This document shows positions 46,764 through 52,779 of a stretch of DNA of 57,202 nt, one piece after another. The notes beneath the pieces are model-generated. The model was given only the letters and a program-made list of their open reading frames with translations. It searched no databases and had not been told where the DNA came from. A program made the translations under genes and the position numbers. Position 1 is the stretch's first letter. Each line of letters begins with the position of its first letter. Origin of the DNA: Desulfotomaculaceae bacterium (GTDB lineage Bacteria; Bacillota; Desulfotomaculia; Desulfotomaculales; Pelotomaculaceae); assembly GCA_028696455.1 (NCBI GenBank), contig JAQVGZ010000008.1, forward strand, positions 1 to 57,202. Reading direction: 5' to 3'.

Positions 46764-47452
46764 ATGCCCTCAAACTCCAATTTTTTTAGCATGCCCATCT
46801 GGTACTTCTCACCGATTCTCGTTTCCCCGGTGCAATAGGAGCAAATTGCAGCCGGAGTGGTAAACCTCAGCTTCAATTCCTTCAGCGTCTGAGTGTCACG
46901 GGCCTGCTCCAAGTATTTGGCCAGCAAGAAAGTACCCTGGCCGGTAATGCCATTGACAAAAATAACCTTCCCAGAGGAGTTCACCTGTTTGACGTTGAAG
47001 GAGAATACCTCTCTTTCCGCTTGCGAGACAATGTCGCCCTTGGTGATCACCACAATGTCCGCAAACCTCAGCATAGGGCCGATTTTACGCGGGGTGTTTA
47101 TTCCAGACAAGTTATCAATGACACATATAGACAGGATCCCGTTGATGTATGGGGAACAGCGGTTACATAGGCCGGCGCTTTCAGTAATCAGCAGCTTTAG
47201 GCCTGACTGGATTCCCCACTGAACGGCATCCTCAATATTGCTGACATAATAGTGATCAGGGCATATTTTCCCGGAAAACCCGACCTGGACCGGGATCCCC
47301 GCCTCTTGATAGCTCCGCTTGTCAAAGGAAGTGAGACAGTCGAATTTAACCACGCCAATACTGCCTTTGGCCAGATCCATACCTTCAATGAGTTTTAAAA
47401 TGACAGAGGTCTTGCCTGAAGAGGGGGGGCCGGCAACAGTGACGAGCTTCAC
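46760..47452 (-). CDS. CobW/HypB/UreG-type GTPase, metal-associated
   Basis: The 230-residue protein starts at a GTG after GGAGGTGA. It has Walker A AGPPSSGKTSVILKL, a Walker-B-like LLITESAGLCNRCSPYI, and the guanine motif VVITKGDI (T-K-x-D). The CxxC right after E-S-A-G, plus a C-terminal AAICSYCTGETRIG, could bind metal, as the equivalent cysteines do in HypB and CobW. The family inserts nickel, cobalt or zinc in target proteins. It is the first gene of the four-gene operon and lies behind the 85-nt element. Confidence 0.75.
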   Translation of the reverse strand: MKLVTVAGPPSSGKTSVILKLIEGMDLAKGSIGVVKFDCLTSFDKRSYQEAGIPVQVGFSGKICPDHYYVSNIEDAVQWGIQSGLKLLITESAGLCNRCSPYINGILSICVIDNLSGINTPRKIGPMLRFADIVVITKGDIVSQAEREVFSFNVKQVNSSGKVIFVNGITGQGTFLLAKYLEQARDTQTLKELKLRFTTPAAICSYCTGETRIGEKYQMGMLKKLEFEGI

Positions 47453-47494: not shown

Positions 47495-47579
47495 TATTAC
47501 TATTCTCCTGAGGGCATTGAATTCCTCCAAAAGTATTCAATTAAGGAAACTGTAATCCTCTTCGTGAAATAACGGCAAG
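47495..47579 (-). promoter_or_regulatory. 85-nt conserved leader element, copy A
   Basis: The minus-strand sequence has TCACGAAGAGG, TACAGTTTCCT, a stem TTCCT/AGGAA, GGAGGAATTC and CAGGAGAATAGTAATA. It matches 51,815-51,900 at roughly 80% identity. It lies 43 nt before the GTPase gene. It could be a structured leader, a promoter region or a 3'-UTR element. I do not recognise it as a known riboswitch class. Confidence 0.55.
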
Positions 47580-47688: not shown

Positions 47689-48135
47689 CTAAAATGGGAT
47701 TAAGTAAATGAAAGCTTTTCTTTTGATACCAATCTCAGAAGAATTAGCTAGTAGACTGACTAAATCACGTGACAAATCATTAATTTGCTGCCAGTATACT
47801 TTCTTAGCTTCTTTATTCAATTCCTTTTGAGGCAATTCCAACTTATCTTTTGATATTCCTAGGATTTCAAGAGCTGTTTCCTTATTGTCAATAGCCATAT
47901 TACAAAAACTGCGGTGTATCCGGAAAAGCGCCTGAAAATATAATAGCTCATCATAGTTTACTGGTGGATCTAACCCTGACAATTTCCAGAAAAAAACACC
48001 CAGGGCTTCTTCTTCAGTATAACCTGCTTTATGCAAATTATCCGCTAGATTGCAAATTATATTTTTACGTTGTATATCAAAGGGCAACCCAGTATTAAAA
48101 CAATGTCTAGTCATGTTGTCATAACTAAGAGCCAT
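47689..48135 (-). CDS. Hypothetical protein downstream of formate dehydrogenase
   Basis: The 148-residue helical protein reads CFNTGLPFDIQRKNIICNLA, EEEALGVFFWKLSGLDPPV and LYFQALFRIHRSFCNMAID. It lies 71 nt after the formate dehydrogenase stop on the same strand and before a strong hairpin. It is probably in that operon and could be a chaperone, but it does not show TorD or FdhE/FdhD features. Function unknown. Confidence 0.55.
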   Translation of the reverse strand: MALSYDNMTRHCFNTGLPFDIQRKNIICNLADNLHKAGYTEEEALGVFFWKLSGLDPPVNYDELLYFQALFRIHRSFCNMAIDNKETALEILGISKDKLELPQKELNKEAKKVYWQQINDLSRDLVSLLANSSEIGIKRKAFIYLIPF

Positions 48136-48206: not shown

Positions 48207-50882
48207 TTAGATTTTCTCAATTTTGATTGCGCAAACCTTATATTCACCTGTTTTAGTAACCGGGTCCAGCACAGCGCTGGTTAACGCGTTAGCCGGGCTG
48301 TTAGCATAGTGGAAAGACATCCATAACATTCCGGGCGGCACTCTGTCCGTAACCAAAATATTAGTAACACAATCCCCGCGCCGGGAAGTAACCTTAACTT
48401 TATCCCCAGTTGCAAGACCAAGTTTAGCAGCGTCATCAGGGTTCATCTCAGAAGCCTCTTCAGACCACATACTATGAATGCCCGGGGAATATGGTGTGGT
48501 CACATTATAATGATACAGGATCCTGCCGGTGGAAAGCAGGAATGGGTATTCATCGTCCGGCACTTCTCCCGGTGGAATATGATCGATGCCCTGAAATAAT
48601 CCTTTACCCCGGGTAAATGCTCCAGCGTGTAAAAAGGCAGTGCCCGGGTGCTCACTGGTTGGACATGGCCACTGGATTCCATCCGATTCGAGTCGCTGAT
48701 AATTTATGCCCGCCAGGCTCGGGGTTAGGGATGCCATCTCAGTCCAGACTTCCTCAGGGGTGGCATAGCTCATCGGATAACCCATTCGCTGGCTTAGTTT
48801 AATTACAGTCTGCCAATTTGCCAGGACAGGCAGCGGCTCAATTGCTTTGCGAACCCGCTGCACACGGCGTTCGGTACTGGTAAAGGTCCCCTCCGTCTCA
48901 GCAAAACTGGCTGCTGGCAGGACCACATCGGCGTATTCCGCAGTCTCGGTGAGGAATAATTCATGGACTACCAGGAAATCGAGCTTCTCCAGGCCGGAGC
49001 GGATATGATTGCTATTGGGATCAGTCAGGACCGGGTTTTCGCCAAGGATATACATAGCCTTAAGCTCCCCCGTATGAGCCTTTTCAAACATATCCGCGAT
49101 TACCAGGCCGGGGTTTTCAGGCAGCGACACCCCCCAGGCCTCTTCGAATTTCGCCCTGACAACCGGGTCGATTACTTTCTGATACCCTGAAAATACGTTG
49201 GGCAAGGCGCCCATGTCACAGGCTCCCTGCACGTTATTTTGCCCCCGGAGTGGGTTTACACCGGTGCATGGCCGTCCCAAATGCCCTGTCAACATCGCCA
49301 GATTGGCAATACTCATCACGTTGTCAGTACCGCAAATGTGCTCGGTTATGCCCAGGGTATAAAACAACATAGCCTTGTCCGTAGTTGCATAAAGGCGAGC
49401 TACCGCGTAAAGGTCCTCCACAGGGACACCGGTTATGCTGGAGACCACATCCGGCTGGTAATCCTTAACGGTTTTTGCCAGCGCTTCGAAGTTTTCGGTG
49501 CGCTCACTAATGAACTGTTGATCCTGAAGGCCTTCCTGCAAAATAATGTGCATTATCCCGTTCAATAAAGGAATGTCCGTACCAGGCTTAAGGCGCAGCC
49601 AGTAGTCAGCTATTCTCGCCAGGTCCGTGCGGCGCGGATCAACCACGACAAGTTTTGCGCCTTTGCGCTTGGCTTCCCGCATTTTATAGCCAATAACCGG
49701 GTGTGCTTCCGTAGTATTAGTACCGATTAGAAACAACATTTCGGCATCTGGAATTTCATTGATGGAGTTAGTCATGGCGCCGCTGCCAAAAGTTGTGGCC
49801 AGACCAGCCACAGTGGGAGCGTGTCAGGTACGGGCACAATGATCAACGCTATTGGTACCCATCACCGCCCTTGTAAATTTTTGAACCAGATAATTTTCCT
49901 CATTGGTACACCTGGCGGAGCTAAGGGCGGCAAAAGCATCCGGTCCGTACTGCTCCTTAATCCCTTTGAGGCGATTGGCAATCAGGTCCAGTGCTTCGTC
50001 CCAGGTCGCAGGCATAAATTCCCCGTCCTTTTTGATTAGGGGTGTGGTAAGCCGCTTTTCGTTTTGTACGAAGTCCCAGCCATAGTGCCCTTTGACGCAC
50101 AGAGCACGGCCATTGACAATACTGGTCCGGTTCGCTGTCACCCCAGTAATCCTGCCATCTTTGACGTTCAGGTCAAAATTACAGCCCGTACCACAGAAGG
50201 GGCAAGTGGTTTTAACTTTTTGGACCTCCCAGCGACGCCCCTGACGCTTCATCTGTTTTTCAGTCAAAGCGCCGGTTGGGCAAACTGTAACACAGTTGCC
50301 GCAAAAGACACATTCTGAATCCACATAGGTAGAGTCAAGAGCGGTTGCCGGCTTGACGTCGAAACCCCGGTAGATAAAGTCCAAATTGTGGATACCTGTC
50401 CACTCATCACAAGCACGGATACATTTGCCGCATTGAATACACTTATTAAGATCCCGAATAATAAAGGAGTTATTTTCTTCGATCACGTAATCGTGTCTCT
50501 CTCCTTGGAAGGTACTTTCCTTAACCCCATATTTATAGCAGTATTCCGCCAGGCCACAATCGCCTAATTTCTCACAGATAAGGCAATCAAGCGGGTGATT
50601 GGAAATCAATAAATTAAGCGTAGTCCGCCTGGATTCAATTACAACCGGAGATTCAGTTTCTACTACCATACCCGGCGACACAGCAGTTACACACGCGGGC
50701 ACAAGGCTACGGGCTCCTTTCACTTCGACCATGCACAGCCGGCACGCTCCAACTGGACTCAAGTCATCGTCATAGCATAGCCGCGGGATATCGATTCCTA
50801 TTTTCTCGGCAGCTTTGAGGATTGTGGTCCCTGACTGAACTTCTACCTCCCTGCTGTTAATAGTCAGCTTTACAAGATTCAT
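48207..50882 (-). CDS. fdhA: Formate dehydrogenase alpha subunit, selenocysteine-containing (UGA at 49,824-49,826)
   Basis: The two halves of this gene are in one frame, separated only by a TGA in the context VDHCART-U-HAPTVAG, the standard formate dehydrogenase active site. Read through, the protein has 891 residues with Sec353. The N-terminal NuoG-like part has a [2Fe-2S] ferredoxin domain (CYDDDLSPVGACRLC), a His-ligated cluster (HPLDCLICEKLGDCGL), two [4Fe-4S] sites (CIQCGKCIRAC; CVFCGNCVTVCPTGAL), and then CPFCGTGC. The molybdopterin domains follow (LRGQNNVQGACDMG). It interconverts formate and CO2 using Mo or W. GGGAGGAGAG precedes the ATG. A presumed Moco/Tuco riboswitch precedes it. 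No NuoE/F-like partner is adjacent. Confidence 0.92.
49794..49826 (-). promoter_or_regulatory. UGA codon and SECIS element in formate dehydrogenase
   Basis: The UGA (49,826-49,824) is followed after 11 nt by a stem UGUGGC/GCCACA with loop UGGUCUG. The apical GGUCU is the same SelB-binding feature as in E. coli fdhF, and the spacing is in the normal bacterial range. This supports selenocysteine insertion rather than a stop. Confidence 0.85.
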
Positions 50883-51045: not shown

Positions 51046-51083
51046 AATAAAAAGGCCGGTGCGGAAAATGCACTCGGCCTTTA
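51046..51083 (-). terminator. Intrinsic terminator of the formate dehydrogenase leader
   Basis: On the minus strand GGCCGAGTGC pairs with GCACCGGCC (one bulge) around AUUUUCC, followed by UUUUUAUU. It lies between the presumed aptamer and the gene, so it should act as the expression platform. Confidence 0.85.
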
Positions 51084-51109
51084 AAAACATCAGTTTCATA
51101 CAACGTCAG

Positions 51110-51212
51110 TTAACCAAATCCTTTCCACATTGGGAGGCATACCCTTTTCAAGATATACCTATCGGTCTGTCGCCATAGCTTTGATGTTACCACAGGCGGT
51201 TAGACTCGGATT
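51110..51212 (-). promoter_or_regulatory. Presumed Moco/Tuco riboswitch aptamer, copy 1
   Basis: The minus strand contains CCGAGTCTAACCGCCTGTGG, GCTATGGCGACAGACCGATA, GTATGCCTCCCA and GGAAAGGATTTGGTTAACTG in order. The CCGCCUGUGG, GACCGAU, GCCUCCC and GGAAAGG blocks agree with my memory of the molybdenum/tungsten cofactor RNA motif, and the 5' and 3' ends (GTCTAACC, GGTTAACTGAC) can pair as P1. It precedes a molybdopterin enzyme. The class call is by recall, not a model search. A closely similar copy is at 52,370. Confidence 0.75.
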
Positions 51213-51350
51213 GTTATATGCAATTATTATGACTATGATGGTGACACAACAAATTTTGGTTAAATCTCTTAAACGAGTAATTCTTCATTAAACAGACAAA
51301 ATCCTGCTAAAAATTTTATTTTGGATCAATTTTTTTAATTGACAGTCAAG
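51213..51350. repeat. Upstream part of the duplicated leader
   Basis: The similarity with copy 2 extends past the aptamer, with ATTCTTCATTAAA, TCCTGCTAAA and TTTTTTAATTG shared (51,277-51,345 and 52,543-52,605). The promoter should lie here on the minus strand, with a possible TATAAC -10 near 51,215-51,220, but no confident -35 is seen. Confidence 0.5.
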
Positions 51351-51506
51351 TACAAAAAATTATGCCAAAACAAGCCGGCTATTATATTGCGCTCAAAGGC
51401 AGGTGGCATATGGGGAAGCAGGCATAATCAGCAAGAATAGGATGGTGAAAAATTAGAGAGTCTGGAAATAACAAAGAGACGTTATTTCCAGACTCTCTTT
51501 ACATAT

Positions 51507-51743
51507 TTAATCAGACGATGAGACGAGCTCAAGAATTTTTGAAGGATTAAATCCTACCACAATCTCATCACCGAGTAGGAACGCCGGCACTCCGCGTACA
51601 TTCCTTTTAATTAACTCAGACCTGGCCTGCTCATCAGCACTAATATCCTTTTCAATGAAGTTGATTTTGTTTTTGGAAAGGAACTCTTTCGCCGTCTTAC
51701 AATGCGGTCAGGTTTTTGACGTAAACATAATGATATCCTTCAT
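51507..51743 (-). CDS. Glutaredoxin-like selenoprotein, UxxC active site (UGA at 51,708-51,710)
   Basis: An ATG at 51743 with AGGGAGG upstream opens a frame with one TGA at codon 12: MFTSKT-U-PHCKTAKEFL. Read as Sec the 78-residue protein has a complete thioredoxin fold of the glutaredoxin/NrdH type, with GVPAFLLGDEIVVGFNPSKI containing the cis-Pro (V-P-A) and G-F turn. The usual CxxC is UxxC here. The frame continues intact for 66 codons after the UGA, which a dead gene would be unlikely to keep, and a SECIS-like stem follows. Such proteins reduce disulfides or peroxiredoxins. The gene lies after the 85-nt element B and the 122-residue gene. Confidence 0.88.
51676..51710 (-). promoter_or_regulatory. 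UGA codon and SECIS-like hairpin in the glutaredoxin-like gene
   Basis: Seventeen nucleotides after the UGA, GAAAG pairs with CUUUC around the loop AGUUC. A G at the second loop position and this spacing meet the usual rules for bacterial SECIS elements. The stem is short, so it is weaker evidence than in the formate dehydrogenase gene. Confidence 0.65.
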
Positions 51744-51814
51744 AAACAAACCTCCCTAATTTAATATTAGTATTATATGCTAACTATTGTAAACTGCTTA
51801 TCATTCTTTATCTA

Positions 51815-51900
51815 TATTACTATTCTCCTGTGGGACTGGAATTCCTCCAAGAATATACAATTGAGGAAACTATAATCCCCTCTTCATGAAATAACGACAA
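51815..51900 (-). promoter_or_regulatory. 85-nt conserved leader element, copy B
   Basis: This is the partner of 47,495-47,579. Here the stem is perfect (TTCCTC/GAGGAA), and CAGGAGAATAGTAATA is identical to copy A. It lies after the 122-residue gene and 70 nt before the glutaredoxin-like gene. Changes between the copies keep the stem, which suggests an RNA structure. Confidence 0.55.
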
Positions 51901-51904
51901 ATTT

Positions 51905-52273
51905 TTAGGCGCGGTGTATCGCAACCTTTTCACCGTAGTAAGTATTTTGCGCCCTGAACCACTGTTTAAAATCTAAATCAGCAATTAGCGATAATATACT
52001 ATCGAAATCTTCTACAGGGTAACTAAACATAAATTTATACAGTTCATACTCTGATTCCGCGGAGGGAATATAAACCTCATCATCATACTGATATTTCTCC
52101 ATTCTTCTGAGGATGACATGATCATCAGGCTGCGCTTTGACATAATCTATGAAATCTTTCATGGTTTTTTCAGATATTATGTTTCTTTCATCGTCAGGGA
52201 AGGGCTCAAATAGTTTTCTCCTTTTTTCCTCCATTTTTTCTAAATAATCGGCAATCTTATTTTTCATACCCAT
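51905..52273 (-). CDS. Orphan 122-residue protein behind a presumed Moco riboswitch
   Basis: GGGAGGT precedes the ATG at 52273. The protein is acidic and helical: IADYLEKMEEKRRKLFEPFP, EKTMKDFIDYVKAQPDD, YELYKFMFSYPVEDFDSIL. No cofactor motif or cysteine pattern is visible. It is the first gene after the second riboswitch and lies upstream of the selenocysteine glutaredoxin. From context it may help assemble a Mo/W enzyme or protect it, but no family is recognised. Confidence 0.65.
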   Translation of the reverse strand: MGMKNKIADYLEKMEEKRRKLFEPFPDDERNIISEKTMKDFIDYVKAQPDDHVILRRMEKYQYDDEVYIPSAESEYELYKFMFSYPVEDFDSILSLIADLDFKQWFRAQNTYYGEKVAIHRA

Positions 52274-52315
52274 GTATTATTACCTCCCATGAAATTAATC
52301 AATAGCCTGCCAAAC

Positions 52316-52347
52316 AAAAAAGCCGGTGCGGAAAATGCACTCGGCCG
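52316..52347 (-). terminator. Intrinsic terminator of the second leader
   Basis: GGCCGAGTGC and GCACCGGC pair around AUUUUCC, followed by UUUUUUG. It matches the terminator at 51,046-51,083 in sequence and position. Confidence 0.85.
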
Positions 52348-52369
52348 TTAAAAACGTCAGTTATACACA

Positions 52370-52473
52370 TCAGTTAACCAAATCCTTTCCGCATTGGGAG
52401 GCATACCCTTTTCAAGGAATACCTATCGGTCTGCCGCCATAGCCTTTATACAGCCACAGGCGGTTAGACTCGG
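52370..52473 (-). promoter_or_regulatory. Presumed Moco/Tuco riboswitch aptamer, copy 2
   Basis: The blocks CCGAGTCTAACCGCCTGTGG, GGCTATGGCGGCAGACCGAT, GTATGCCTCCCA and GGAAAGGATTTGGTTAACTG are conserved with copy 1. Differences are concentrated in loops: GTAACATCAAAG becomes CTGTATAAAGG, and GCGACAG becomes GCGGCAG. This supports a conserved RNA. It controls the 122-residue gene and possibly the glutaredoxin-like gene behind it. Confidence 0.75.
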
Positions 52474-52779
52474 ATTATTATATGTAGTTTTTAGAATAAA
52501 AAAACAAAATAAGTTGGTATTATATTACTAAACCTAGTTATTCTTCATTAAAAAAGCAAATTCCTGCTAAAGAATTTTTTTAGATGAATCTTTTTTAATT
52601 GCCTGATCTTTTATTTCTAATCTCAAGAGACCCCTGAATTATTTCAGGCATGTTACACTTTGTTTACCTTTCCCGGGGGCTTGCGCCATTATCAGGTACA
52701 TTCGTTTATTATCGGATTTATCCGATATGAGAAGGAGTTGGCATTCTGTCGTTCGATAAACTCCAGCAGTTCATTTCAT

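Follow-up and report, generated by a model that had tools for sequence, protein, structure and literature searches.

The riboswitch locus

The window, that is, the whole stretch of 57,202 bases analyzed here, carries on its minus strand two similar riboswitch leaders, A and B. Leader A lies before an orphan gene, ORF122, and leader B before fdhA, a gene whose product uses the Mo/W cofactor. The features, in the order of transcription, are as follows.

52538..52567, minus strand: sigma-H-type promoter of leader A (GCAGGAATT-N12-GAAGAATAA), exact consensus match
52366..52487, minus strand: riboswitch aptamer A, RF01055, without P3 (cmscan, 55.9 bits)
52374..52392, minus strand: predicted antiterminator 5' strand of A (GCGGAAAGGAUUUGGUUAA), from elongation folding and a duplex test
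52315..52350, minus strand: intrinsic terminator A with U-tract (folding energy -14.0 kcal/mol, reached by 4 of 200 shuffles)
51905..52273, minus strand: ORF122, orphan of 122 aa with no Cys, no family match
51812..51885, minus strand: intergenic element with a sigma-H-like promoter before the glutaredoxin (second genome copy at 47495-47561)
51507..51743, minus strand: UxxC glutaredoxin, probable selenoprotein with UGA at codon 12 (Pfam Glutaredoxin, 55.5 bits)
51455..51498, minus strand: 19-bp terminator-like hairpin between the A unit and leader B (-30.4 kcal/mol, z -9.0)
51278..51307, minus strand: sigma-H-type promoter of leader B (GCAGGATTT-N12-GAAGAATTA), exact consensus match
51102..51223, minus strand: riboswitch aptamer B, RF01055, without P3 (cmscan, 51.1 bits)
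51048..51079, minus strand: intrinsic terminator B with U-tract (folding energy -16.3 kcal/mol, reached by 0 of 200 shuffles)
48207..50882, minus strand: fdhA, formate dehydrogenase alpha, Sec at codon 353 (TIGR01591, 842.8 bits, cut-off 666.25)
47689..48135, minus strand: ORF148, second orphan, downstream of fdhA, of a family often near RF01055

When the whole window was searched with cmscan, exactly two Rfam matches were obtained, both to RF01055, on the minus strand and over the full model (positions 1-135): aptamer A at 52487-52366 (E 9.6e-11) and aptamer B at 51223-51102 (E 2.4e-09). A preliminary description of this DNA had proposed two Moco/Tuco riboswitches here and named the Rfam covariance model as the check; both copies score above the RF01055 gathering cut-off (55.9 and 51.1 vs. 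36 bits). It had also put one copy before a formate dehydrogenase and the other before a 122-residue gene of no known family, in agreement with the positions of fdhA (start at 50882) and ORF122 (52273-51905). The span that it marked, 51046-52610, takes in both leaders, ORF122 and the glutaredoxin, with fdhA outside.

Two copies of a leader cassette

The two leaders are separated by 1.1 kb. They are identical at 107 of 122 aptamer positions, at 46 of 52 positions of the platform (from the aptamer to the T-run) and at 72 of 103 positions over the approximately 105 nt upstream, which bears out the earlier claim that aptamer, terminator and upstream sequence are all duplicated. Judged by this comparison, a single promoter-riboswitch-terminator cassette is present twice, as A and B. 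Its upstream stretch is less well conserved than the aptamer and the platform (Fisher P 0.0014 and 0.010, respectively). Among the 15 differences within the aptamer, which were assigned to stems by eye, six are located in the P2 loop region (positions 35-44), five in the outer flanks, two in P4 and one each in P2 and P5, and the change in P2 costs copy B one base pair. The suggestion that selection acts on both copies therefore stands in part: the aptamer and the platform are better kept, but a recent duplication accounts for part of this.

The model positions of P3 are gapped in both copies in the RF01055 model alignment. A and B thus have the P3-less form, the type that Regulski 2008 (PMC2408646), in the passages drawn on here, assigns to the tungsten cofactor by correlation.

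RF01055 is matched 23 times in the genome that contains the window and at least once in 93 of 100 relatives, this genome included; therefore, such riboswitches are ordinary for the lineage. By eye, P3 is absent from 22 of the 23 aligned copies. The sole copy with a P3-like hairpin (L021 7328-7468, plus strand), which is of the Moco type by eye, precedes a large predicted secreted protein. In a tree of 40 riboswitches (23 from this genome, seven from Pelotomaculum sp. PtaB.Bin104 and 10 from other genomes), A, B, the copy before the ORF122 of PtaB.Bin104 and a copy on contig C87 form one clade with a support of 0.988. The C87 copy (L023 3824-3960, plus strand) precedes genes for a SufS-like cysteine desulfurase and a NifU-like protein, which could possibly supply sulfur for cofactor maturation. 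Another of the genome's RF01055 copies is followed by TupA-like genes, for which TupA was the best family match (242.8 and 174.3 bits, short of its cut-off of 400 bits). Some further arrangements were observed: three RF01055 in series before a gene resembling Mo/W oxidoreductases by eye (contig C56, L017 7124-7759), a series of two ahead of the gene for a predicted membrane protein (contig C80, L013 6096-6370), and single copies before unexpected genes, namely, one for a purple-acid-phosphatase-like protein (L015 1642-1760) and trmO followed by a topoisomerase-III-like gene (L018 9335-9452, by eye).

Each cassette carries an exact match to the B. subtilis sigma-H consensus, with AGGA and GAAT spaced at 18 nt in both leaders. 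The exact motif, which was chosen after inspection of leaders A and B, has three matches in 402 kb of strand-sequence, two of them before A and B. With no more than one mismatch, it occurs within 100 nt upstream of six of the 23 riboswitches in the genome, against 0.1 expected (300 Markov shuffles: mean 0.11, maximum 2). Since 19 of the 25 sites with no more than one mismatch are located away from riboswitches, a single near-match means little. The genome contains a sigH gene (377.5 bits, above the cut-off). Among the open-access papers searched we found no text that spells the sigma-H consensus in letters; for SigH of Sporomusa, the part of the source used here gives AGGA and GAAT at 17-18 nt (PMC12456013).

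Terminators and the predicted direction of the switch

Terminators A and B are bulged; they were absent from the list of a generic terminator scan and were found by folding instead. When RNAs of stepwise increasing length were folded, the conserved 3' part of the aptamer paired, in A as well as in B, with the 5' arm and the loop of the terminator before the 3' arm emerged. In A, the 5' strand of this antiterminator shares bases with the aptamer's 3' part (P5/P1), and the antiterminator and terminator pairings were computed to be mutually exclusive in both leaders. The alternative pairing is adopted by the shortened RNAs of A, B, the C87 copy and the PtaB.Bin104 copy; in the C87 copy it is kept via a double change from G-C to A-U (UGCGGAAA/UUUCCGCA to UACGGAAA/UUUCCGUA). 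A terminator could be located for 32 of the 40 riboswitches examined, and in 31 of them its 5' arm pairs with the aptamer 3' end better than 200 mononucleotide shuffles of the arm do (z -1.3 to -6.0), the remaining one being no better. The minimum-energy folds of the full A and B leader RNAs, computed without ligand, leave P1 unclosed, and the absence of ligand in the model may be the cause. The leader of ORF122 in PtaB.Bin104 is not an intrinsic terminator, because it has no U-tract.

A ligand-bound aptamer would occupy the antiterminator strand, so that binding should cause termination. A and B are thus predicted from the modelled folds to be OFF switches, and their genes would be made when the cofactor is scarce. 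We consider the following course of events fairly probable. Leaders A and B would be transcribed by sigma-H. With little free tungsten (or molybdenum) cofactor in the cell, the aptamer would stay open, its 3' end (GCGGAAAGG...) would pair with the 5' arm and loop of the terminator, and the antiterminated transcription would continue into ORF122 behind A or fdhA behind B. Once cofactor is bound, the strand would be held in the aptamer, the terminator would form and transcription would stop. The duplicated cassette of sigma-H promoter and OFF riboswitch would make ORF122 a cofactor-scarcity gene, and the glutaredoxin would probably be transcribed separately.

The orphan genes and the glutaredoxin

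ORF122 has no Pfam family at E<=1, gives only noise in NCBIfam and PHROGs with nothing near an NCBIfam cut-off, and has no PDB-sequence match when searched as a two-row profile. Homologues occur in two of 100 genomes of the same order and two of 113 of the same class, its own genome being included both times. The sole relative found is that of Pelotomaculum sp. PtaB.Bin104, beyond whose locus nothing was obtained in genome contigs, viral contigs, plasmids or phages; both genomes are drafts in many contigs. Between the two sequences, dN/dS is 0.22 over 116 codons, so that ORF122 is a real gene under purifying selection. An AlphaFold model from the two sequences reached a pLDDT of 53.5 and was hence left out of the fold search. 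A common origin of ORF122 and ORF148 by duplication was rejected, with a probability of 0.4% in the profile comparison.

The ORF122 of PtaB.Bin104 is immediately preceded by an RF01055 of its own (52.5 bits). On the upstream side it adjoins a homologue of ORF148, which comes with a further RF01055 (70.9 bits). The genes downstream are mobB, two of the MoCF/MoeA type and one for a CoxE-like VWA protein, and neither fdhA nor the glutaredoxin is adjacent. The pair of riboswitch and ORF122 is thus kept in a second species despite different neighbours, which supports, from gene context across two species, the place of ORF122 in the Mo/W regulon that the preliminary description had assigned to it. 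By guilt by association with its neighbours, fdhA in the window and mobB/moeA in PtaB.Bin104, the most likely role of ORF122 would be that of a small accessory protein that helps to make or insert the cofactor or to mature formate dehydrogenase. The frame of the PtaB.Bin104 gene appears by eye to be off by one base just past the start codon (L010 1840-1863, minus strand), which may be an assembly error, a moved start or a frameshift.

Directly behind leader B, fdhA is itself a selenoprotein gene with an in-frame UGA at codon 353. ORF148 has homologues in 14 of 25 genomes of the family, its own included. At 12 further loci, RF01055 is located upstream on the same strand in six (0.3 to 5.7 kb) and downstream only in one (32 nt), and no RF01055 is found in the other five, some of which are cut by contig ends. 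No Pfam match below E 0.08 was obtained for 12 members. The AlphaFold model is all-helical (pLDDT 86.9) and has no PDB match below E 0.001, the best VIA hit (Z 4.3) being a designed protein. Judged by its recurrent neighbourhood, ORF148 is probably a second orphan of the Mo/W regulon.

The glutaredoxin has a PF00462 domain (55.5 bits vs. a cut-off of 22.9) with the UGA located within a UPHC site. Its four closest homologues (64-77% identical) have UGA at this site in three cases and UGU in one, and SelB and tRNA-Sec are present in the genome above their cut-offs. It is therefore probably a selenoprotein, as had been proposed from its sequence. When a SECIS hairpin was sought by simple folding, the region after its UGA gave a z of 0.01, but the UGA region of fdhA, used as a yardstick, shows none either (z -0.44), so that such folding tells little here. 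In NCBIfam the glutaredoxin falls below the cut-offs of GlrX_YruB (68.4 < 88.55), Uxx-star (47.5 < 66) and also NrdH. It has in common with the selenoprotein glutaredoxins, as far as the part of the source used here describes them (PMC13188914), the UxxC site, the glutaredoxin domain and the exchange of Sec and Cys, but differs in falling below these YruB, NrdH and Uxx-star cut-offs. A same-genus genome has a Cys-form glutaredoxin (TCSHC) whose C-terminal extension bears two CxxC pairs (L060 4883-5224, minus strand).

Upstream of the glutaredoxin lies the element of about 70 nt that contains a sigma-H-like promoter. It has only two copies in the genome, which are 85% identical and both on the minus strand (51812-51885 and 47495-47561), and the second precedes a gene for a HypB/UreG-like GTPase at 47452.

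Alternative readings

It had been supposed that riboswitch A also governs the glutaredoxin, so that leader A would drive ORF122 and the selenoprotein as one operon. The two genes are indeed on the same strand, only 161 nt apart, and a strong terminator-like hairpin is located only past the glutaredoxin. However, a weak terminator-like hairpin (51882-51863) stands ahead of the glutaredoxin, which has its own sigma-H-like promoter (51848-51820, minus strand, one mismatch) 77 nt before the start codon, and no RF01055 was found in the loci of its four closest homologues (8.0-13.0 kb). Riboswitch control of the glutaredoxin is therefore unsupported, and we regard the single operon as doubtful; read-through from A is possible.

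The OFF control of fdhA, an enzyme that uses the cofactor, is counter-intuitive. If A and B were ON switches instead, with the cofactor blocking the terminator, cofactor-using enzymes would be made only when the cofactor is available, which makes physiological sense for fdhA. Yet the strand that would prevent the terminator is the conserved 3' part of the aptamer itself, which ligand binding would occupy, and the TupA-like transporter and the mobB/moeA-type genes behind RF01055 in the same genus fit OFF switches, so that we hold ON control to be distinctly unlikely. It could also be argued that leader A is a duplicate in decay and that ORF122 is unrelated to Mo/W, given that the leader is duplicated and ORF122 is restricted to the genus. 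This appears very improbable, since aptamer A outscores B, ORF122 is under purifying selection, and its riboswitch has been retained in a different context in PtaB.Bin104. Our preferred reading remains that of two OFF switches, with ORF122 under the control of A and the glutaredoxin transcribed separately.

Relation to known systems and implications

Moco/Tuco RNAs with terminators and with many copies per genome, triples included, are described in the sections of Regulski 2008 used here, for example, at least 15 copies in Syntrophomonas wolfei (PMC2408646). A and B share with the motif as given there the covariance match, the GAAA tetraloop of P4, the P3-less form, the terminator platform, the Mo/W genes and the multiple genome copies. 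Unlike the motif so described, the A and B cassettes are on separate units 1.1 kb apart, one of them before an orphan, and the genome has 23 copies. Tandem Moco/Wco riboswitches likewise consist of closely related neighbouring aptamers, according to the portion of the source consulted (PMC9481103), but A and B belong to separate leaders, as ORF122, the glutaredoxin and the 19-bp terminator-like hairpin lie between them. No paper on a Moco riboswitch together with a selenoprotein was found among the open-access papers searched. The riboswitch class and its many-copy expansion are already described, and what is new is ORF122 in the regulon, likely together with ORF148.

As a speculation that we rate on the unlikely side, Pelotomaculum may have a sigma-H-driven regulon for Mo/W-cofactor scarcity, with about 20 OFF riboswitches, ORF122 and ORF148 as accessory proteins, and a subclade of riboswitches (A, B, the copy ahead of the SufS-like and NifU-like genes and the ORF122 copy of PtaB.Bin104) for formate dehydrogenase and sulfur-dependent cofactor maturation. 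Both the sigma-H promoters and the OFF control predicted for an enzyme that uses the cofactor can be put directly to the test. A riboswitch can tie a gene of unknown function to a pathway. In this case, the link between RF01055 and ORF122 in two species with different neighbours makes ORF122, and the more widespread ORF148, concrete candidates for accessory proteins of formate dehydrogenase or of the Mo/W cofactor.
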